From the IMG/VR virus record IMGVR_UViG_3300050035_000592, positions 1 through 25,521 of that record: a stretch of 25,521 nt of DNA. The stretch is one strand, 5' to 3'. Position 1 is the stretch's first letter. Every line of letters starts with the position of its first letter. This stretch comes from a virus. The position numbers and the translations under genes are program-made. Positions 1 through 9,698 of this stretch are shown here, piece by piece. The notes below the pieces were generated by a model. That model did not search any database. It saw only the letters and a program-made list of their open reading frames with translations, and was not told the origin of the DNA.

Positions 1-848
1 AAATAAACAACATATCCGCCAAGGACTTAGAGATCACGGCGGCGTTAGCCCCCTTCCAGGATTATGTTGTGCTGCGTATAGCAGGCCGAGGTACGACGGA
101 ACAAGGGCTTCCAGACCCCTCCTCCGCCGCGTATTTCCAGTTTCTCATTAACCCGGCCCAGGTCACAGTTGCACGTCAGCAGTTGGACGCGCAGGCAATG
201 GCCCGGAGTGGGTGGCAGCTTGGCGTGTGGGGTGAGGATTTCATCGCCATAACTATGGAGGGAAGGACTCCGGGTCGCTACTTTGCAGACGGCCTGACCG
301 ACGCATATGCCGACTTCTCCATGTCCTTCCGTAATCTCGAAGCACTGGAAGTGTTTGTTGAAAACAACGGCTACTGGTTTGAGGGGGAGCAGTCAGCGGA
401 GGGTCCATTGGCCACTGCCGGGTTTACCCGCCGCCAGATCAAGATGCATACCGACGTGGAGCTGTCGGTCGGTGAGTTCATCTGGTCCGGGATGTTTGAG
501 TCCATGACCATTCGTGAGGACTCGCAGAATCCGTACCTACAGGTTTTTTCACTCTCTTTCATTGCCTGGAAGGAGGCCTTTTTCAAGGAAACTCCCTACC
601 AAAACCCGATTGATAAGTCCGTGCAGCGGGGGCATACTCCCAACGCTTACGTCGCGCTCGGAGCCACGGGTGCAGGAGCCGTTCCACAGGGCTCAGCACT
701 TCCCGCATATCAGCCAACGCCAACGCCGGTTCCCAGTAACGTCGATCCGCAAGCTGCGGGGATTCCTAGCCTCTCCGATAATCTCAATCTTACGGGGGCG
801 AACACAAGTGTGTTCCTTCAACCTACTCCAGAATGGCTAACTCAATGA
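1..848 (+). CDS. Tail/baseplate structural protein, 5'-truncated
   Basis: The reading frame is open from base 3 and runs off the left edge. The residues before the first possible start (GTG at 69) read as ordinary protein (..APFQDYVVLRIAGRG), so I treat the gene as truncated rather than starting at 69. The pattern FLINPAQ, then a GW..G.WGEDF segment and I..EGRT, followed by an aromatic-rich stretch ending NNGYWFEG, resembles tail-tube/baseplate junction proteins encoded just before the hub in long-tailed phages. This is resemblance only; no catalytic motif is seen. The C-terminal ~75 residues are rich in Pro, Ala and Thr and look disordered. The stop overlaps the start of the hub gene, which suggests translational coupling and a shared role in baseplate assembly. 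The structural role is fairly safe; the exact family is not. Confidence 0.7.
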   Translation, partial: INNISAKDLEITAALAPFQDYVVLRIAGRGTTEQGLPDPSSAAYFQFLINPAQVTVARQQLDAQAMARSGWQLGVWGEDFIAITMEGRTPGRYFADGLTDAYADFSMSFRNLEALEVFVENNGYWFEGEQSAEGPLATAGFTRRQIKMHTDVELSVGEFIWSGMFESMTIREDSQNPYLQVFSLSFIAWKEAFFKETPYQNPIDKSVQRGHTPNAYVALGATGAGAVPQGSALPAYQPTPTPVPSNVDPQAAGIPSLSDNLNLTGANTSVFLQPTPEWLTQ

Positions 849-3391
849 GCGGACAGGTACGTAATATTCAACAAAGTTTGCAAGATCGAGACGTGACGAA
901 GCAGTGTCCCGACGTGGTCTGCTTTATTGATGGTCAGAACTATCTCAACAATCCATTTCTAGGCACCGAGCCGGGTGTCCGAGTTCCATTCAACGATTAT
1001 CTTAGTTCGTTTGAGGTGTCCTATGACGTGGATGCCTTAGTGCCAAGTGGTTCGGTTACCCTGGTCGTTCCCAATTCCGCTGACCATCAGTTCCGCACTC
1101 CGGGTGGGAATAATCTTCTCACGACTATGAGCGATATCCGGGTCTATGGCAAGGGATACTACCTTTCTCCCGAGGGGAACACCGTTTATCACCAGATATT
1201 CCGGGGCTTCATCACCTCGGTAAACTACAACATTGATGGAAAGCACACCATTATCAGCATCTCTTGCGCGGGGGCCATGGGTCTGCTGGAACGGATGCAG
1301 GTTGACATGGCTCCTTCCCGGATGGCTTACGCCGCGCAGGAAGTGACCCCATTCACATCGACCTGTTGGAACCTGGGGCCGATTGACCAGATTGCCTGGG
1401 TCTTTCTCTATGGTTCGATGTTGGATGGGTTCGATCAAATGGTGTCGCTGCGGCAACGTCACTTTGATCCGACTCAACCCTTCCACGCTGCTGTCGCAGC
1501 CGGTATGGCTGCTATGTGGCAGCCCCTGCTTTACGATCTGGCGCGGGATGTCCACATCTTCGGTAAGCCGAATGTAACCGATGTTCTAACCTCGATCAGG
1601 CTGGCCACTGCCCACCCTGAAACTGCCAACGAGCCCTATTCTAAGAGTGTGATGGCGATTGCCCGCGACCGAGTCGGGAAGTTAAGTCCCAGTGACGCCA
1701 GCGCGGCAGACATGCTGTATACCGAACAACTGCGCGGCTATCTACCAGACCACGGCTGGGGCAATATTCAACCACTTAACAGCAAGGTTACGAGCCGTCT
1801 GGAGCGGTTAAACTACCTCACCAAGTTGATCGGGTTTGAGGCGTATCAGGATATCGATGGCGGGATAATATTCAAACCACCACTGTATAACTTGGATGTG
1901 CTTAACATCAGTAACCCCAACGATCCCGCCTTTGATAGCAAGCTGCTCGATCTTTATGGGAAAAATAACCCCTTTGTAGTGCAGTTGGCGGAGATTCTGG
2001 CAGAGTCCGAGACTGAGGATGAGTCCGCTGTTCGGGCCACCAGGGTCATCGTTCGGGGCAGTCTGAGTCCGGGTTGGCAGGTCCCGGGGACAGAGACCGT
2101 ACTCGCCGTTGCGGAAGAGTTTGATATTCCTAAAATGGCGCAGTTCGGTCTGCGCATGGAACCCCCGATAGAAGCTCCGTGGTTTCGTGACGGGGACTCG
2201 AAAGGACAGCATGGATACGCGGCCCTCGAACTTGCACGAGCAAACCGGGCCTTTCGCACCTACAGCCTAACGATTCCACTGCGCCCCGAATTGAAGCTAG
2301 GGTTTCCGATGTATCTCCCGCACCGAGATATGTATGGTTACATTAAAGGCGTTACCATCAGCTACACTCAAGGCTCTAATGCGACCATGTCGGTTCTACT
2401 GGACTGCCTTCGCCGTCGCCCGATGTTCCCCAAGGTGCAGGGTGTTCTTCAGGTGGATAAGACGACGGTGCAGACAACTACTTTAACCACGCAGCCCAAC
2501 CTTATCATGCAGTGGACTGCAGCACCAACCAGCGTCACTCCCCCACCTCCCGCTGAACTTGCAGGAAGACTGGCCACCCTGCCCGTGCCTCTGGCACAGG
2601 TGTTCAGTCAGGAGATTCAGATGCAGCATTATCGGGAGAAGAAGATTTCGAACAGCATCGGCCCAAACCCCGACTCAACCACACATAACTGGCGTGTGCA
2701 GCCGGATACACAGGGTATCTTTGAGGCGCAACGCAAGGTGGAATCCGCTCCCTCGGACACTCCGAAGACAGCCATGAACGATTACTTCGCGGCACTACAA
2801 CAGTACCGGCCTTACACCGATGGGAAGGGCTATGAAGTTATCAGCCCCTATCCTTTAGGTCGCTGGGATTCACTCAAGAATGCGCTGTATAACTTTACAA
2901 TACAGAATTCGTTGGCGAGCGGTGCTGCGTCTGCGGTCGTTGCCAATGTGGCGGGGGTTCCCACGGCCCTGCTAACCCCCATCAGTAGTACCCCCACCCC
3001 CTTGTCGAACGCGCAGGCCTTTCTCTTTACGGGGTCGGCAGCTCCTTCGAGCTCTCCAGATGCGGCTTCGGCATTGACCGACGCTCTCATTACCCAGACA
3101 AGCAAGTTGGGCAGCTTCAAGGTGATCGAGCTAACTTACGATGCAACGAATACTGCGTCCACAGTAGGAGGTCTTCAGTCCATGACCGATCAGGGAGGGG
3201 TAGTGGACGACTCCATCACCGCCGTGGACAGTCGGATTTCGGGGCGCGTAGAGGCATTTCTAACTGGCAATGTGCCGCAACCTTCAAGTGCCACGACTGT
3301 TCTGCGGAGGGTCACGGCAAATGGAAGTGCAACGAACACCGGAGAGAGTGCAGCAGTCTTACAGAGAATCACTGTGAATCCCCCCGAATAG
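833..3391 (+). CDS. Baseplate hub protein (gp27 / gpD-like)
   Basis: 852 aa. The first ~545 residues read like a phage tail hub: an N-terminal beta domain (PFNDYLSSFEVSYDVDALVPSGSVTLVVPN, about 53-83), a DIRVYGKGYY..YHQIFRGFITSVNY segment near 103-140, and ISCAGAMGLLERM, the usual position of a gpD/gp27-type domain. A region near 330 (LTKLIGFEAYQDIDGGIIFKPP) and a C-terminal hub segment near 475-545 (IPLRPELKLGFPMYLPHRDMYGYIKGV) follow. By family knowledge such proteins form the trimeric hub that connects tail tube and spike. The last ~300 residues are a Ser/Thr/Ala/Pro-rich extension absent from short hubs, possibly a binding site for other baseplate parts. ATG 833 overlaps the upstream gene by 16 bases; an in-frame ATG at 845 would give a 4-base ATGA overlap. 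Neither has a clear Shine-Dalgarno sequence, so coupling is likely and the start is uncertain. Confidence 0.8.
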   Translation: MANSMSGQVRNIQQSLQDRDVTKQCPDVVCFIDGQNYLNNPFLGTEPGVRVPFNDYLSSFEVSYDVDALVPSGSVTLVVPNSADHQFRTPGGNNLLTTMSDIRVYGKGYYLSPEGNTVYHQIFRGFITSVNYNIDGKHTIISISCAGAMGLLERMQVDMAPSRMAYAAQEVTPFTSTCWNLGPIDQIAWVFLYGSMLDGFDQMVSLRQRHFDPTQPFHAAVAAGMAAMWQPLLYDLARDVHIFGKPNVTDVLTSIRLATAHPETANEPYSKSVMAIARDRVGKLSPSDASAADMLYTEQLRGYLPDHGWGNIQPLNSKVTSRLERLNYLTKLIGFEAYQDIDGGIIFKPPLYNLDVLNISNPNDPAFDSKLLDLYGKNNPFVVQLAEILAESETEDESAVRATRVIVRGSLSPGWQVPGTETVLAVAEEFDIPKMAQFGLRMEPPIEAPWFRDGDSKGQHGYAALELARANRAFRTYSLTIPLRPELKLGFPMYLPHRDMYGYIKGVTISYTQGSNATMSVLLDCLRRRPMFPKVQGVLQVDKTTVQTTTLTTQPNLIMQWTAAPTSVTPPPPAELAGRLATLPVPLAQVFSQEIQMQHYREKKISNSIGPNPDSTTHNWRVQPDTQGIFEAQRKVESAPSDTPKTAMNDYFAALQQYRPYTDGKGYEVISPYPLGRWDSLKNALYNFTIQNSLASGAASAVVANVAGVPTALLTPISSTPTPLSNAQAFLFTGSAAPSSSPDAASALTDALITQTSKLGSFKVIELTYDATNTASTVGGLQSMTDQGGVVDDSITAVDSRISGRVEAFLTGNVPQPSSATTVLRRVTANGSATNTGESAAVLQRITVNPPE

Positions 3392-3401
3392 GAGCTGAAT
3401 C

Positions 3402-5702
3402 TTGACCGCTACCCAGGCCCGATACCGACCAACCACGATTGAGCGTGATCGCTATCTGGAGGATCTGCGCCTCTTTCTCGTGGAGGTTCTTACGGTGGAC
3501 TGGGAGCGAAAGAGCCTAACCTGTCTCAATCTGAGTGATGACACGACAATTCAGGAAGTCAGCATTTTTCCGGCTACCCATTCCAGCTTCGAGGGAACGG
3601 ATGTGGATATGCCGGAACGGGGCAGCCGAGGCCTCGCTGTTCCGCTACACTCCAACGCGGGATTCTATGAGTATGCCATCGTCGCCTGGGTCACCTCGGA
3701 CACTGTCCGCGCCCAGCAAGGGGTGGCCACTCGCGCGATCAACATCAAGGAGATGGAGGGCTGGAACGTCCGCACGCGAGGCACCTATCGCAAGGCCTTC
3801 CCGGGCCAGCACACCAAGACCACCTCCGAAGGTTACTCAGAGAAGCATGACGACGGCTGGGACCGGGTCACCGCAGACTTCTCGCGCGATCACCTCGACC
3901 CCCACCGGCGCACATGGACTGGCATCACCTCCCGCAAGGTCAGCTACACGGACGGGGGCCTGTCCCTTGAAGGTCCGGTCAATCGTCCCGGAGCCACTGG
4001 AGTGGGCACTGACACCCTGCCCGACGGCACCGCGCAGGCGGTTGTCTACCTAGCACCTGGTGCTACAGTTTCCAGCCGATATCAGAGTGGGGCACAAGAC
4101 GTCATCGCCCTGGTTGAGCGCACCACGAAGGTGCAGGAGTTTGCCCTGGACTACAGCATTCCCGAGGAGGCCATCGGTACCGCCTTGCTGGATACAGCCC
4201 TCGGCGTTACCGCTGATGCATGGGGCCGGACCGCGATCCAGAAAACCGGCGAGGTAGCACACGACGACCAGTCCTCCATGATCGACCAGGCCTGGGACCA
4301 CCCCTATTACCTGGGCGCGGGCACCACTGCCGTCGGCCCGACCTTGAATGACGGCCCCACACCCCGCCGTCGGGGATACATCCTGGAGCATTCTGAGGGT
4401 ACACTGGTCGGTTCGAACATCTTCGACCCCTCCACCTATGGCCAGGTGCTGAAGCCCACTCTCTTTCCCTACACTACACAGGGCCGCTTTGGCACCGATG
4501 TTGAGTCGGGCTACCTGCCGGTCAATCCTTCGGCGGACCATGTCGAGACTAGGCTCGCGGCTTCCGCATCCGCAACCCGGTTTACGCATGAGGGTAACAC
4601 CACTCGCTGGGATGTGACGAAGGAAGGCTTCATGTCCTTCGAGATCGGCGCTACACTGCCCAAGGAGAACATCCCCCTCGCCGGTGGCTATGAGCACCCC
4701 CACGGGGCCGGGCGTTCGCTTGAAGCCCACCTCGTCGGCTCCATGAAGATGGTGGTCGGCAAGAACCGCGACGAAGAAGATGCGATCGACCTTCAGGCCC
4801 TTGGCCAGACCGTCCTCCGCCTGGGCGCAGACGACGCCTCCTTACCCAACGTGAACCGCTCCGTGATGACCCAGGTGCGCGGATCGAACGACGTGGTACA
4901 GAATCGTACGATCCAGTATTGGGCTACCCCCAAACTCGTTCCCGGAGATGCAGTCAATCTTCAAGCCAAGGTGGGCGCGGAGAACGTCAGCCTACGCGGA
5001 GCCTTCGACGGAGGCACCGTACTTCGGCTCGGCGCTCGTAATCCCAAATCTCTTCGCCGCCACATAATGAATGGCTACTCGGACGGCCCCGGCGTGCAGG
5101 CATGGGCTCCTGGTGATCCGAACCGCAAAGATTCGAAGTCGGCTGGCCGTCCCGTGTATGGCTCCGGGGATTCGACCTATTCCTTCCACGACTTGACCCA
5201 AGTAGGCAAGCCCCTCTTCGGCCAGCTTCCTTACTACTGGTCGGGCTCGCCAGTCAGCAATATGGACGCGCACGGGCTGTCACTGGACGCCCACGCAGTC
5301 CGTGACATTCTTTTGCGGGTTGGCAAGAATACAGCATCTGGTCAGAGTCTGCTGCTGGATCTTGCGGGTGGTTTAGTCGCGGCCTTCGGTAAGGACAATC
5401 AGGGGCGATCGGCCACGGTGGCACTCGACGGCGGCGTCGAGATGACGATTGGGTCAAACCAGCAAGGGAAGGCGCTCAGGATTGAACTTCAAGGCGATTT
5501 GGACCTTACAATTCACGGAAACTGGCATGTCAACTGCACGGGTGATTCCGTTTTTGAGAGCGCTTCGCATACTCATATTGTGAAGACAGACCTCACCACC
5601 AAGGCGCAGACCCAAACGCACGTGGCCATGGCCCTAATGACTCATGAGTCTCCCGAGCACATCAACAACCAAGGCCTGTACTCTAGCGCGGAGGACGCAT
5701 AA
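3402..5702 (+). CDS. Baseplate central spike, OB-fold plus beta-solenoid (gp5/gpV-like)
   Basis: 766 aa. Residues ~24-100 (FLVEVLTVDWERKSLTCLNL ... GSRGLAVPLHSNAGFYEYAIVAWV) look like the OB-fold that seats a spike on the hub. The C-terminal part repeats a solenoid pattern: LLLDLAGGLVAAFGKDNQGRS, then VALDGGVEMTIGSNQQGKAL, then IELQGDLDLTIHGNW. An earlier copy lies near 445-480 (AHLVGSMKMVVGKNRDEED..LQALGQTVLRLGADD). This fits a trimeric beta-helical membrane-piercing needle. An HTH (His-Thr-His) at 723-725 matches the HxH iron-binding motif of P2 gpV-type spikes. No lysozyme domain like that of T4 gp5 is visible; wall cleavage may be left to other proteins. The start is TTG with GGAG at 3391-3394, seven bases upstream. 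The gene follows the hub directly, the expected order. The middle (~100-440) is unassigned. Confidence 0.75.
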   Translation: MTATQARYRPTTIERDRYLEDLRLFLVEVLTVDWERKSLTCLNLSDDTTIQEVSIFPATHSSFEGTDVDMPERGSRGLAVPLHSNAGFYEYAIVAWVTSDTVRAQQGVATRAINIKEMEGWNVRTRGTYRKAFPGQHTKTTSEGYSEKHDDGWDRVTADFSRDHLDPHRRTWTGITSRKVSYTDGGLSLEGPVNRPGATGVGTDTLPDGTAQAVVYLAPGATVSSRYQSGAQDVIALVERTTKVQEFALDYSIPEEAIGTALLDTALGVTADAWGRTAIQKTGEVAHDDQSSMIDQAWDHPYYLGAGTTAVGPTLNDGPTPRRRGYILEHSEGTLVGSNIFDPSTYGQVLKPTLFPYTTQGRFGTDVESGYLPVNPSADHVETRLAASASATRFTHEGNTTRWDVTKEGFMSFEIGATLPKENIPLAGGYEHPHGAGRSLEAHLVGSMKMVVGKNRDEEDAIDLQALGQTVLRLGADDASLPNVNRSVMTQVRGSNDVVQNRTIQYWATPKLVPGDAVNLQAKVGAENVSLRGAFDGGTVLRLGARNPKSLRRHIMNGYSDGPGVQAWAPGDPNRKDSKSAGRPVYGSGDSTYSFHDLTQVGKPLFGQLPYYWSGSPVSNMDAHGLSLDAHAVRDILLRVGKNTASGQSLLLDLAGGLVAAFGKDNQGRSATVALDGGVEMTIGSNQQGKALRIELQGDLDLTIHGNWHVNCTGDSVFESASHTHIVKTDLTTKAQTQTHVAMALMTHESPEHINNQGLYSSAEDA

Positions 5703-8700
5703 TGCCAGCGAACCCCATCACCGTAGCACTCGGAAGCCTCCTCGGCGATGCCAGCTCCGTCAGCCAAGCCTGTTCTTCGCCTGAAGGTGTTGTCAACCTC
5801 ATCATGCAGGAGGCAAAGAGCATCTCCGGTCCCGTAGCCCCACCGACCGACCTCTGGCCTCTCAAGGCCGGGAAGACCATTAACGACCGCCTAATCCTGG
5901 CGGGGCATACTGATCTCGCAAACAAGTGGAAGAACTGGCATGCCTCACTTGAGCAGGGTCGGTTTAACGAGAGCTCGCTTGGTGATGCCAGTGCGTGGAT
6001 GCAAGCCAAGACCACTATCATCAATGAGCACATCATGCACTATATGGGGCTGAATCAGCTTGCCATCGATGGCAAGCTCCCCGACTATCCACGGGCGGTT
6101 AAGTATGCCAAGGACAGCATAAACTTCATCCAACAGGTGCAGACGTACCTGAACGAGATTATGCTCCTGACCGCCGGGCTTCAAGCCAACACAGCTCTCC
6201 TGCTTTCCATTAAGAACCAGATGGTAAGCATGATCGACAACAATCTGATGTGTCTTACCAACCTGCTGAATGAGATTTGTAACTGGGGCCTCCCAGCGCT
6301 TCCGTCCATGAAGACGCGATGGAGCTGGAATGGGTTCAACTTCAATGCCCTGTCTGGATTCCACCTCAACTCACTGCTCTCGACGCCCAACTTTAACTTC
6401 TCCTTTGGAGCATGCGAAAAATTTGCTCAGGGAAACCTCGCCACCCTCTTCAATACGGTTTCTTCGGACATCGAGGATGATGGGTTGACGTTGAATCTGG
6501 CCTCGCCCACGGCGACGCTGAACGGAAGCTATGGTGACCCGACACAGTACAACTCGGTTAACTATCAAAGCACCGTGCAGTCCACGACCTCCCTGGTTCT
6601 GGACCCGGACACCCCCGCGTCCACAACGCCGACCTCGCTGCCCAACCCGGCGGCGGTGATTTCGAACTATGCTCTTCCGGCGAGCACGTATACCGCGAAC
6701 GTTGTATCCGCCACCTCCGCACTTCAGTCAATCGTGATCCAGCCGGACGACCCCGACTACACCAATGGCGTCGCTTCTACCTCGCGCACAGCCAATCTCC
6801 GCGCCCTGCTGATCCAATACGTCAACCTCGGTGACATCTCCCCAAGCTACGACCCGAACCTAATGGCAACCTGGCTTCTCTACCTGGGCTTGAACCGGGC
6901 CGGGCGTGGCGGGAGCTGGCTGCCTACTTTCGAGGCTGCCTACACCGCGCTGATTGAGCCGTCGCTCAACTACCTTAATACCACCGCAGTACCGTGGTGC
7001 CTCCAGACGGCGTCAGAGCCGTGGAACTACATTACTGGGTCCACCGTAGAGGTCAACGCTGCACCCACCGCGATTCCATTGATTGCCACGCTAAAGGCGG
7101 ACGCGACCAACAATCTCCTTTGGAAGCTCTCGTACATTGAAGCGTCCCTGCTCGGCTATCCCCGGACTACCATCTGGGATTCCGGTGCTGACACTACTTT
7201 CTTGGCAGGTGCGACGGGCTCGGCGCTCGACTATATGCCAACCACCGTGAACGCAACCCCAACCGTGAACGTGACCGTCGGAGAGGGCACCGCCAGCTTC
7301 CCGGAAAGCATCACCTATCCGCAGACGCTTACGGTGGCTCTCACCCAGGTCATCGCGACCGCAACAGCATCGATCGCAGGCGCACCGACTTACCAGAGCA
7401 CGCGCCCGCAGTTCCGTTACACCTACAATATGTTCGCGCAGGCCACTCTGGTTGATCGCTACACCCAGTTCTGGCGCGAGTTCAACTTCAACTTGACTGC
7501 TCTATTGGCCGAGAGCCCGTATCTACTCAGCTTCGTGGCCACTTACCCAGTCATCCTGAACAGTGCTATTAATCCGCTGGCTGACCCAAGCGCCTTCGCC
7601 GCGCTCCAGGCCGACGTCAACACCCGCAACCAGGCATGGACTCCGGGATCCGACCTCCCGCCTATCCCTTCGGTTCCTTCCAGTGCCTCTGCTTACGAGC
7701 TACCCACAGATCAGACGAATGGGTGGTCCACCGGCAGCTTCGATGCCGCCGCTTTCCTCAAGCGACCGGACATCCAAGCGCAGACGTTGCCGGTGCAGTT
7801 GGCCATGCTGCGCACCAATCAAAGTTTCAGCAGCCTCATGACCACAAAGGCCAACCTGCAAACCAGCATCCAGAATGCGATCGACAACGCCAACTCATCG
7901 ATCGCGTCCGCCGGAATGCCCGGCTGGGGCGAGGACACGACCGGGATAATGGCCATTCCTCCCGGTCCAGCCACCGCCGTTAGCTTCGACACGATCAACT
8001 TCAACCAGACTGGATACGTGACTGACTCCACGACCGTAGCCATCGTCACCGCAGGCACCTATCTGGTGTACGGTGTCCTGAACTGGGACCTAACCGGCCC
8101 CGCCGCCACCCGCACCATCAATCTGATTCTGAACGGTGCGCTCGCGGCCACCGCCGACGCGGACGCAACCGCCGACACGCCATTTACGGTTCCCTTCTCG
8201 ACACAGGTCACCCTTGCGGTCGGCGATATTCTCCGGATCACAGCGGAGCACGATCAGGCGACGGCACAGAACTTGGTGGCAGGAAGCAGCTTCCTTGGCC
8301 TGCTACCTCCCTCGGCGACCCCGGCGGCAACGTCGTCGAGCTCGGCTTCGCAGGCGGCCTCGGCCACCCTTACCCTTTCGGCGGATGCCGACCTGGCCGT
8401 CTTGACGGCGGTCACTATCCAACCCGATGGTGGTGTCCTGCCCCTTGATCCAACTAGCGTTGGTGCTCCATTCCTCGACGGGGTTACCATCTCCGCTGCG
8501 CCCGCCGGACAGACAGTAGGGGTTGCAAGCGCTTATGGGCAGTCCTACACCGTTGATACTGCTACCTTTACCACCGGTGAGCTGCTTTACGTCGGAGTTG
8601 GTGGTACACTTACCCAGGATTATGCGTCCGTGAGTGCCCTCGCCTGGATTGTCTGCGTGGGGAAGGCCCTGACGGTCACCAGTTTTGTGTTTGAGCCCCA

Positions 8701-8719
8701 CATCCCCACCGCTTCCTAA
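5702..8719 (+). CDS. Large virion protein with C1q-like jelly roll and C-terminal knob
   Basis: 1005 aa. ATG 5702 shares one base with the upstream TAA (TAATG), so it is translationally coupled to the spike gene. The N-terminal ~220 residues look largely helical (HIMHYMGLNQLAIDGKL, INFIQQVQTYLNEIMLLTAGL) and may be the virion-anchoring part. The middle is long and unassigned. Residues ~762-855 fit the C1q/TNF-like jelly-roll pattern: INFNQTGYV, then AGTYLVYGVLNW, RTINLILNG, LAVGDILRITAEHD and SSFLGLL. A Ser/Ala-rich linker (~865-885) leads to a final module with ADADLAVLTAVT, FTTGELLYVGVGGTLTQDY and VGKALTVTSFVFEP, a pattern seen at the ends of phage fibre or decoration proteins. I infer a baseplate or side-fibre protein that displays a binding head. 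Receptor and anchoring partner cannot be told from sequence. Confidence 0.65.
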   Translation: MPANPITVALGSLLGDASSVSQACSSPEGVVNLIMQEAKSISGPVAPPTDLWPLKAGKTINDRLILAGHTDLANKWKNWHASLEQGRFNESSLGDASAWMQAKTTIINEHIMHYMGLNQLAIDGKLPDYPRAVKYAKDSINFIQQVQTYLNEIMLLTAGLQANTALLLSIKNQMVSMIDNNLMCLTNLLNEICNWGLPALPSMKTRWSWNGFNFNALSGFHLNSLLSTPNFNFSFGACEKFAQGNLATLFNTVSSDIEDDGLTLNLASPTATLNGSYGDPTQYNSVNYQSTVQSTTSLVLDPDTPASTTPTSLPNPAAVISNYALPASTYTANVVSATSALQSIVIQPDDPDYTNGVASTSRTANLRALLIQYVNLGDISPSYDPNLMATWLLYLGLNRAGRGGSWLPTFEAAYTALIEPSLNYLNTTAVPWCLQTASEPWNYITGSTVEVNAAPTAIPLIATLKADATNNLLWKLSYIEASLLGYPRTTIWDSGADTTFLAGATGSALDYMPTTVNATPTVNVTVGEGTASFPESITYPQTLTVALTQVIATATASIAGAPTYQSTRPQFRYTYNMFAQATLVDRYTQFWREFNFNLTALLAESPYLLSFVATYPVILNSAINPLADPSAFAALQADVNTRNQAWTPGSDLPPIPSVPSSASAYELPTDQTNGWSTGSFDAAAFLKRPDIQAQTLPVQLAMLRTNQSFSSLMTTKANLQTSIQNAIDNANSSIASAGMPGWGEDTTGIMAIPPGPATAVSFDTINFNQTGYVTDSTTVAIVTAGTYLVYGVLNWDLTGPAATRTINLILNGALAATADADATADTPFTVPFSTQVTLAVGDILRITAEHDQATAQNLVAGSSFLGLLPPSATPAATSSSSASQAASATLTLSADADLAVLTAVTIQPDGGVLPLDPTSVGAPFLDGVTISAAPAGQTVGVASAYGQSYTVDTATFTTGELLYVGVGGTLTQDYASVSALAWIVCVGKALTVTSFVFEPHIPTAS

Positions 8720-8776
8720 AATATTTGTGGTCTGTATTCCCACTAGGCGACTACGGCACGGTATTTAATAGGTAGG

Positions 8777-8808
8777 GTAGCATCTCGCGCAGGCGAGTGG
8801 GTTGAAAC
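8777..8808 (+). CRISPR. Solitary type I-C CRISPR-repeat-like unit (candidate RNA anti-CRISPR)
   Basis: A single 32-nt element starts GTAGCA and ends GTGGGTTGAAAC. Aligned without gaps to the general type I-C repeat form (GTCGC..., 32 nt, ending GTGGATTGAAAC/T), it matches at both ends and in total length. CTCGC (8784-8788) pairs perfectly with GCGAG (8793-8797) around a GCAG loop. The 3' arm ends at repeat position 21, leaving 11 nt (8798-8808), the length of the type I-C crRNA 5' handle. The 5' arm sits at positions 8-12 rather than the usual ~3-7, which is atypical. There is no second full repeat, spacer series or cas gene nearby. An AT-rich TATTTAATA (8762-8770) just upstream could be a -10 box, but no good -35 is visible. 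Solitary repeat units in phages are known RNA anti-CRISPRs (Racr); that role here is inference. Confidence 0.5.
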
Positions 8809-8851
8809 AATGGGTAAGAAGCATCCCCGATGAGGGAGAAAAGGGGCCTAT

Positions 8852-9022
8852 ATGACAATCGTGGTTGAGAGGGTTTTAATCTTTGACGGCGACGTTGTGC
8901 TTTGTTTCGCCCCTGAGACTAACATTGAGGCAACAATCTATGGGGATGAAAAAGTGATAATCAGTCGCCCTCAACGTTTAACAGTACCCGCAAAGGCAAG
9001 GCTAGAGCTGCGAGAACTGTGA
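8852..9022 (+). CDS. Small hypothetical protein, 56 aa
   Basis: Short ORF in the gap between the baseplate and cell-wall genes. ATG 8852 has a good Shine-Dalgarno (AAGGGG at 8841-8846, 5-base spacing), and TGA ends at 9022. The protein begins MTIVVERVLIFDGDVVLCF and ends VPAKARLELREL. It alternates hydrophobic and charged residues, so it is probably a small beta-rich soluble protein, with no signal peptide or membrane segment. I recognise no family. It starts 43 bases after the CRISPR-repeat-like unit and could share a transcript with it. Size and place fit an anti-defence (Acr-like) or other accessory gene, but nothing in the sequence proves this. CCCC at 8825-8828 could pair with the GGGG of its ribosome site and limit translation; this is weak. 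Confidence 0.6.
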   Translation: MTIVVERVLIFDGDVVLCFAPETNIEATIYGDEKVIISRPQRLTVPAKARLELREL

Positions 9023-9067
9023 ATTTGACCTAAGCTAAGGCCAACAAAACAAACCGAATACACGCGA

Positions 9068-9085
9068 GTGGGAGCTATCTCCCAC
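9068..9085 (+). other. Perfect 7-bp hairpin
   Basis: GTGGGAG (9068-9074) and CTCCCAC (9079-9085) form a perfect stem with a CTAT loop, 46 bases after the 56-aa ORF. No run of T follows, so it is not a classic intrinsic terminator. It could stabilise the 3' end of the upstream short RNA or be a processing site. Its left arm lies in GCGAGTGGG (9064-9072), which also occurs in the CRISPR-repeat-like unit at 8793-8801. Confidence 0.4.
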
Positions 9086-9135
9086 CATTGCATTTAACAC
9101 AGTAAACAGTTTTGTGGCGGTCACACCAGAACCAT

Positions 9136-9171
9136 AAGGAAGGAGGCTAATATAACCCTGCACCAACAGGG
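9136..9171 (+). promoter_or_regulatory. Orphan strong Shine-Dalgarno plus small hairpin in rlpA leader
   Basis: AAGGAAGGAGG (9136-9146) is a stronger ribosome site than the one used by the next gene, yet no ATG, GTG or TTG follows at usable spacing. CCCTG (9156-9160) pairs with CAGGG (9167-9171) around a 6-base loop, between this site and the real RlpA-like start at 9195. This could be a ribosome standby site, the remnant of a lost small gene, or chance. Confidence 0.25.
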
Positions 9172-9194
9172 GACCCGCCGCTCTAAGGAGAGCC

Positions 9195-9698
9195 ATGAAA
9201 TCAGTCTTTTTGAGCGTCCTTTTGTGCGTATTCACCCTTCCCGCCGTCGCTATGACCCCGGGACTGCATCCACACTCCGGGATCCCCCGGCACAACCACA
9301 TTTCACACTCGCGCACACCCGCCGTACGCTCCCATGGCCCCACGGCACACCCGAAGCCCCCCAGCACGAGGGCAGGGCTGGAAGCCGAAGGAGTTGCTAC
9401 CTGGTACGGTCCCGAGATGAAAGTTCACGGGCATTACAACAAGATGGCGAACGGTCAGGTCTTCGATCCGCAGAAGCTCACCGCCGCCTCCCTAACCCTC
9501 CCGCTTGGAAAGATTGTGCGGGTGACGAACAAGAAGACCGGTCTTTCAGTGGATGTTGAGATCACGGATCGAGGCCCCTTTGTCAAGGGCTGCATCCTCG
9601 ATCTGGCGCAGGCCGCTGCAAAGAAGATCGAGTGTAATGGAATGTGCCCCGTTCAGATCACGGAAGTTCCAGTTAGCGAAGGAGACCCATCCTCATGA
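9195..9698 (+). CDS. RlpA-like exported protein with double-psi beta-barrel
   Basis: 167 aa. Residues 1-19 form a signal peptide (hydrophobic FLSVLLCVFTLPAVA, with an AVA cleavage site after Ala19). No lipobox is evident, although many RlpA proteins are lipoproteins. Residues ~20-62 are a His/Pro-rich linker. Residues ~65-155 form the double-psi barrel: GVATWYG (66-72), MANG (84-87), LTAASLTLPLGK and ITDRGPF (123-129), then ILDLAQAAAKKI. In characterised bacteria RlpA is a lytic transglycosylase acting on glycan lacking stem peptides, and related folds bind polysaccharide. The usual TAAH appears here as TAAS and DLS as DLA, so activity is uncertain. AAGGAG (9185-9190) precedes ATG with 4-base spacing. 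Its place two genes before the endolysin suggests a role in wall opening from the periplasm, or a virion-borne wall-binding protein. Confidence 0.85.
   Translation: MKSVFLSVLLCVFTLPAVAMTPGLHPHSGIPRHNHISHSRTPAVRSHGPTAHPKPPSTRAGLEAEGVATWYGPEMKVHGHYNKMANGQVFDPQKLTAASLTLPLGKIVRVTNKKTGLSVDVEITDRGPFVKGCILDLAQAAAKKIECNGMCPVQITEVPVSEGDPSS

Follow-up and report, generated by a model that had tools for sequence, protein, structure and literature searches.

The window analysed here is a whole virus record of 25,521 bases. In its genes, it is syntenic with part of the genome of Tunturi_5, namely the tail and lysis region; this myovirus-like jumbo phage of Tunturiibacter, an Acidobacteriota host, has a genome of 309 kb (PMC11924767). 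The first gene of the window can be aligned to gp255 of Tunturi_5 and has relatives in 14 further viral contigs, 833-3391 and 3402-5702 are 52% and 67% identical to gp254 and gp253, respectively, and the plus-strand gene at 5702-8719 encodes a virion structural protein orthologous to gp252, with an identity of about 46-48%. The lysis module, which contains a lytic transglycosylase and an endolysin, is opened on the plus strand by the gene of an RlpA-like lytic transglycosylase or lipoprotein (DPBB_1; 9195-9698), corresponding to gp251 of Tunturi_5 (54% over 94 residues). Used as queries in the viral collection, the RlpA-like, structural and gp254-like proteins returned no direct relatives.

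The structural gene is separated from the lysis genes by an intergenic gap of 475 nt (8720-9194); the same slot in Tunturi_5 measures 321 nt and is devoid of the element described in the following. On its plus strand, the gap contains a type I-C-repeat-like 32-mer at 8777-8808, GTAGCATCTCGCGCAGGCGAGTGGGTTGAAAC, in which CTCGC (8784-8788) pairs perfectly with GCGAG (8793-8797) in a 5-bp stem closed by a GCAG loop, giving the hairpin CTCGC-GCAG-GCGAG at 8784-8797. The remaining 11 nt, TGGGTTGAAAC (8798-8808), agree in every letter with the 5' handle that crRNAs from real type I-C repeats ending in GTGGGTTGAAAC should carry. The earlier note, which had singled out this element as a solitary type I-C-like CRISPR repeat and proposed it as a candidate RNA anti-CRISPR, was correct in all letters and coordinates, including the 5-bp hairpin, the GTGGGTTGAAAC end and the 11 nt after the stem; that the element is solitary, intergenic and carried by a phage was also borne out. 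A search for tRNAs and known RNA families yielded no candidate.

A sample of real repeats was obtained by a pattern scan for two GTGGGTTGAAAC copies at array spacing, which returned at least 120 bacterial genomic stretches, from which 67 distinct repeats of at least 30 nt were read. The set used for comparison comprises 74 repeats, all of which share the 3' end of the 32-mer or come from Acidobacteriota. That GTGGGTTGAAAC is a type I-C repeat end proved right, as it terminates the repeats of many arrays, and both arrays examined for their neighbours lie beside type I-C cas genes, cas1c, cas4 and cas7 in the case of L025 and cas5c, cas8c, cas7, cas4 and cas1c in the case of L103, an Acidobacteriota MAG. 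Among the matches listed, the nearest repeat is GTCGCGCCTCGTGCAGGCGCGTGGGTTGAAAC (L025/L020), which is 27/32 identical to the 32-mer without gaps; the next-best repeat-like place in the window reaches 22/32. The L025 repeat, from the Pseudomonadota MAG S5R_St_7, also has a length of 32 nt and the identical 12-nt 3' end, but it forms a 7-bp stem (positions 3-9 with 15-21) and resides in an array, whereas the 32-mer is single and pairs positions 8-12 with 17-21. The likeness extends beyond the 3' end: 14/18 positions agree in the 5' part, which is above chance. Since the 5' part resembles real repeats as well, the observation is stronger than could be known from the letters of the window.

The fold of the element departs from that of genuine repeats. 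As read from the latter, the normal type I-C stem joins positions 3-9 to 15-21; in the 32-mer, A3-G21, G4-A20 and A6-C18 cannot pair and T7-G17 is a wobble, and of the five mismatches to the nearest repeat, none is compensatory in the normal register. The shifted 5' arm and small loop, given as the weak point in the earlier note, go with a broken normal stem, with three of seven pairs lost and one weakened to a wobble; the handle offset is kept. In the substitute stem, made up of positions 8-12 and 17-21, the 5' arm is displaced by 5 nt; the base of the 3' arm, at which Cas5c would cut, is unmoved, as is the 11-nt handle. The 32-mer combines the GTGG[A/G]TTGAAAC end with 11 nt after the stem, as is typical of type I-C; among natural repeats with the same end, 51/64 have exactly 11 nt there. 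The hairpin and the single-stranded 3' end of a repeat are both recognized by Cas5d/Cas5c, which cleaves at the hairpin base, and the type I-C crRNA handle measures 11 nt (PMC3890593). The 32-mer would offer the enzyme a 5-bp stem with a 4-nt loop and a 7-nt 5' extension. On its own, the 32-mer folds only moderately better than shuffled sequences (z -1.75), and its predicted fold includes four weak extra pairs, between positions 2-5 and 25-28, that occlude part of the 3' handle.

Chance expectations were obtained by an exact Markov calculation using the dinucleotide frequencies of the window and the 74 repeats. The 12-nt end occurs once without mismatch in the window, the expected number being 0.004. 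The probability of a match of at least 27/32 is 6.6e-10 per position, which corresponds to 6e-7 in the 475-nt gap and to 3.4e-5 per window, the latter with further trials behind it, namely all other repeat types and the many windows that were presumably read. The chance of a 5-bp stem ending at the handle offset is 0.006; it is independent of the likeness in sequence, which is not made likelier by the presence of such a stem. In real viral sequence, the best match over 323,282 positions, in a set selected in part because it contains the 16-nt end, was 23. The 14-nt end GAGTGGGTTGAAAC is found at 78 distinct other viral places, where the 5' part agrees at 11/18 positions at most, as compared to 14/18 in the 32-mer, and where a stem of at least 5 bp at the right offset occurs once (1/78); many of these places seem to have a higher A+T content, for which reason the Markov calculation provides the fairer control. 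Eight viral contigs carry the 16-mer GCGAGTGGGTTGAAAC, and those that were checked show no type I-C likeness in their 5' part.

These odds look different for the viral collection as a whole, the size of which was calibrated from the eight exact 16-mer matches: 7-23 matches of at least 27/32 are expected in it by chance, as opposed to 0.02-0.07 at 29/32, so that a single match at the former level carries no unique weight. It is quite possible, if somewhat short of an even bet, that the resemblance is accidental, a GC-rich hairpin of the gap (the end of an mRNA, a terminator or a leader) happening to fall between GTAGC and TGGGTTGAAAC. Besides the number of equally good matches expected, the broken normal stem fits this explanation, as does the fact that the stretch 8720-8853 folds no better than its shuffles (z +0.74). 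The same gap in several relatives furthermore holds hairpins that differ in sequence; the scan classed three as terminator-like, and some have T-runs (L296, L291 and Tunturi_5). It is opposed by the expectation for the single window, which the hairpin offset multiplies by a further factor of about 0.006, and by the form of the hairpin itself, since the stem at 8784-8797 is followed by TGGGTTGAAAC rather than by a T-run and hence does not qualify as an intrinsic terminator.

Phages are known to carry solitary repeat units, one of which, RacrIC1, targets type I-C (PMC10651486). Like these Racr units, the 32-mer stands alone between genes of a phage, with a type I-C-like 3' handle and a hairpin followed by 11 nt; unlike them, it has a shifted stem, has neither an identified acr gene nor a predicted promoter to go with it and is 84% rather than at least 90% identical to a repeat. 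By the definition of SRUFinder, whose set comprises 17,823 repeats, a solitary repeat unit must share at least 90% identity with a known CRISPR repeat over 90% or more of its length (PMC10651486). The 32-mer conforms to this definition in being intergenic and outside an array; in the comparison with repeats proposed in the earlier note, the best match among the 74 collected repeats was 27/32, which lies below the 90% threshold. With three pairs broken, no repeat with an intact normal stem could exceed 29/32 against the 32-mer. The chance counts at 27/32 and 29/32 make the cut-off appear sensible, and the 32-mer falls below it.

Intact repeats of the form GTNGC...GCGNGTGGGTTGAAAC are present in five viral contigs, one of which holds a solitary copy (L167) and one a long array. 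Five such contigs against 7-23 chance matches means that real and accidental cases are similarly frequent, so the counts by themselves do not decide the matter. Their existence, be it as solitary (L167) or as paired repeats (L164 and L165), lends some substance to another explanation, according to which the phage lineage once captured a real type I-C repeat as a decoy, mini-array or integration scar that has since decayed and lost its function. An above-chance likeness combined with a broken normal stem devoid of compensatory changes would be expected of such a relic, yet the 3' end is intact over 12 nt and a stem persists at the right offset, neither of which free decay would favour, and we consider this origin unlikely.

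The solitary repeat of L167 (IMGVR_UViG_3300001919_000315), on the minus strand at 12389-12358, is an intact type I-C repeat, GTCGCGCCCCGCGCGGGCGCGTGGGTTGAAAC, followed by GGGGCCATATGGCCCC. It resembles the 32-mer in being a single repeat in a viral contig with the same 12-nt end, and differs from it by a full 7-bp stem and a subsequent GC hairpin, the two being identical at 26/32 positions. As a solitary-repeat candidate, it is much better than the 32-mer of the window.

The nearest isolate infects Acidobacteriota. Cas5c was detected above the cut-off in only 16/396 genomes of this phylum (about 4%), and the repeats read from Acidobacteriota type I-C loci reach at most 25/32, none being nearer to the 32-mer than the L025 repeat. 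In 84,980 species genomes, we found no real array with the 16-nt end GCGAGTGGGTTGAAAC, and the 3,289 spacers of the collected arrays gave no convincing match to the phage or its relatives, only short, chance-like ones. No sigma-70-like promoter was predicted in 8600-9300 by a scan whose model does not cover phage-specific promoters. A TTGAAAC element at a comparable position of the same gap is lacking in Tunturi_5 and the readable syntenic relatives; in L292, this motif occurs only 763 nt downstream of the stop codon. As the window gap has no significant match in most of the relatives' gaps, which are too diverged to be aligned, this absence shows no more than that the family as a whole does not share the element. 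A motif GGTAGRG..CTCG, seemingly common to Tunturi_5, L296 and the window gap, was not significant for the window.

Downstream of the 32-mer, the plus strand offers a possible gene of 56 amino acids (8852-9022), preceded by a purine-rich ribosome site. In a single-sequence AlphaFold model (pLDDT 73), its product is all-beta with six strands; a fold search returned no matches at E < 0.2, we found no relatives of the protein, and the ORF is absent from Tunturi_5. It could represent a small accessory gene adjoining the repeat-like unit and is a candidate for an anti-CRISPR or other counter-defence protein. Its proximity raises the alternative that the hairpin is a cis-acting leader element controlling stability or translation of this gene, the likeness to CRISPR being irrelevant. 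The hairpin does lie directly upstream of an ORF with a plausible ribosome site, the start codon being 44 nt downstream, and a beta fold is predicted for the product even from a single sequence (pLDDT 73), but the ORF is without relatives and the stretch without significant alignment to most relatives' gaps, which makes this reading improbable.

Further downstream, at 9068-9085 on the plus strand, the gap contains a terminator-like hairpin, GTGGGAG-CTAT-CTCCCAC (GTGGGAGCTATCTCCCAC), with a z of -4.2 for 9055-9095; it is the strongest structure tested in the gap and possibly marks the end of the upstream transcript. The 9-mer GCGAGTGGG is repeated at 8793 and 9064, with no excess of near matches across the window. 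The leader of the RlpA-like gene (9113-9194) shares the order TGTGGCGG ... CGCCGCT ... AGGAGAG ... ATG with Tunturi_5 (L002 15149-15237), and GGCGG could pair with CCGCC around an inner hairpin, forming a candidate conserved 5' UTR structure; the sequences searched held no further copy with both halves.

Taken with these alternatives, the confidences in which are not mutually exclusive and need not add up to one, the element at 8777-8808 is best described as a solitary, diverged type I-C-repeat-like unit that owes its form to kinship or mimicry, a reading to which we assign a probability of roughly 0.45. Between kinship to a type I-C repeat and an accidental resemblance, the odds are roughly even, with kinship slightly favoured. 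For the bolder proposal of the earlier note, a decoy RNA acting against a host type I-C system, the type I-C end, the likeness of the 5' part and the solitary, intergenic position in a phage all speak in favour; an identity below 90%, the broken stem, a predicted fold that covers part of the handle, the low share of sampled Acidobacteriota with Cas5c, the lack of a predicted promoter, the absence from relatives and the missing host array with the 16-nt end among 84,980 genomes weigh against it. A working decoy or anti-CRISPR RNA is unlikely, though possible.

If the 32-mer did act in this manner, it would be read within an RNA that starts in the structural gene and extends to the lysis leader, and this RNA would fold into a short hairpin leaving the 11-nt type I-C handle free. 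Cas5c of the host might then bind or cut it like a pre-crRNA, and Cas5c and Cas7 could be tied up by an RNA that lacks a spacer targeting the phage. In the most far-reaching version, a jumbo-type phage infecting soil bacteria, probably Acidobacteriota, would make a repeat-mimic RNA whose stem has been rebuilt in a shifted register with the Cas5c offset and the 11-nt handle kept, such that Cas5c could grip it while ordinary repeat searches miss it; we regard this scenario, too, as unlikely. Were it true, repeat mimicry by phages would extend below the identity threshold used so far, RNA anti-CRISPRs in viromes would be more numerous than estimated, and a shifted stem would be acceptable to Cas5c given the right handle. 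If it is false, the case shows how often a 12-letter handle with a nearby hairpin looks convincing at virome scale.

In two Acidobacteriota genomes, G124 and G166 (loci L136 and L137), we also observed interspersed elements of about 70-80 nt, which start with TTGAAACCC and end with GATCCGTGGGTTGAAAC. They occur at several places, contain an internal CGTCGC..GCGACG palindrome and are apparently not CRISPR arrays.
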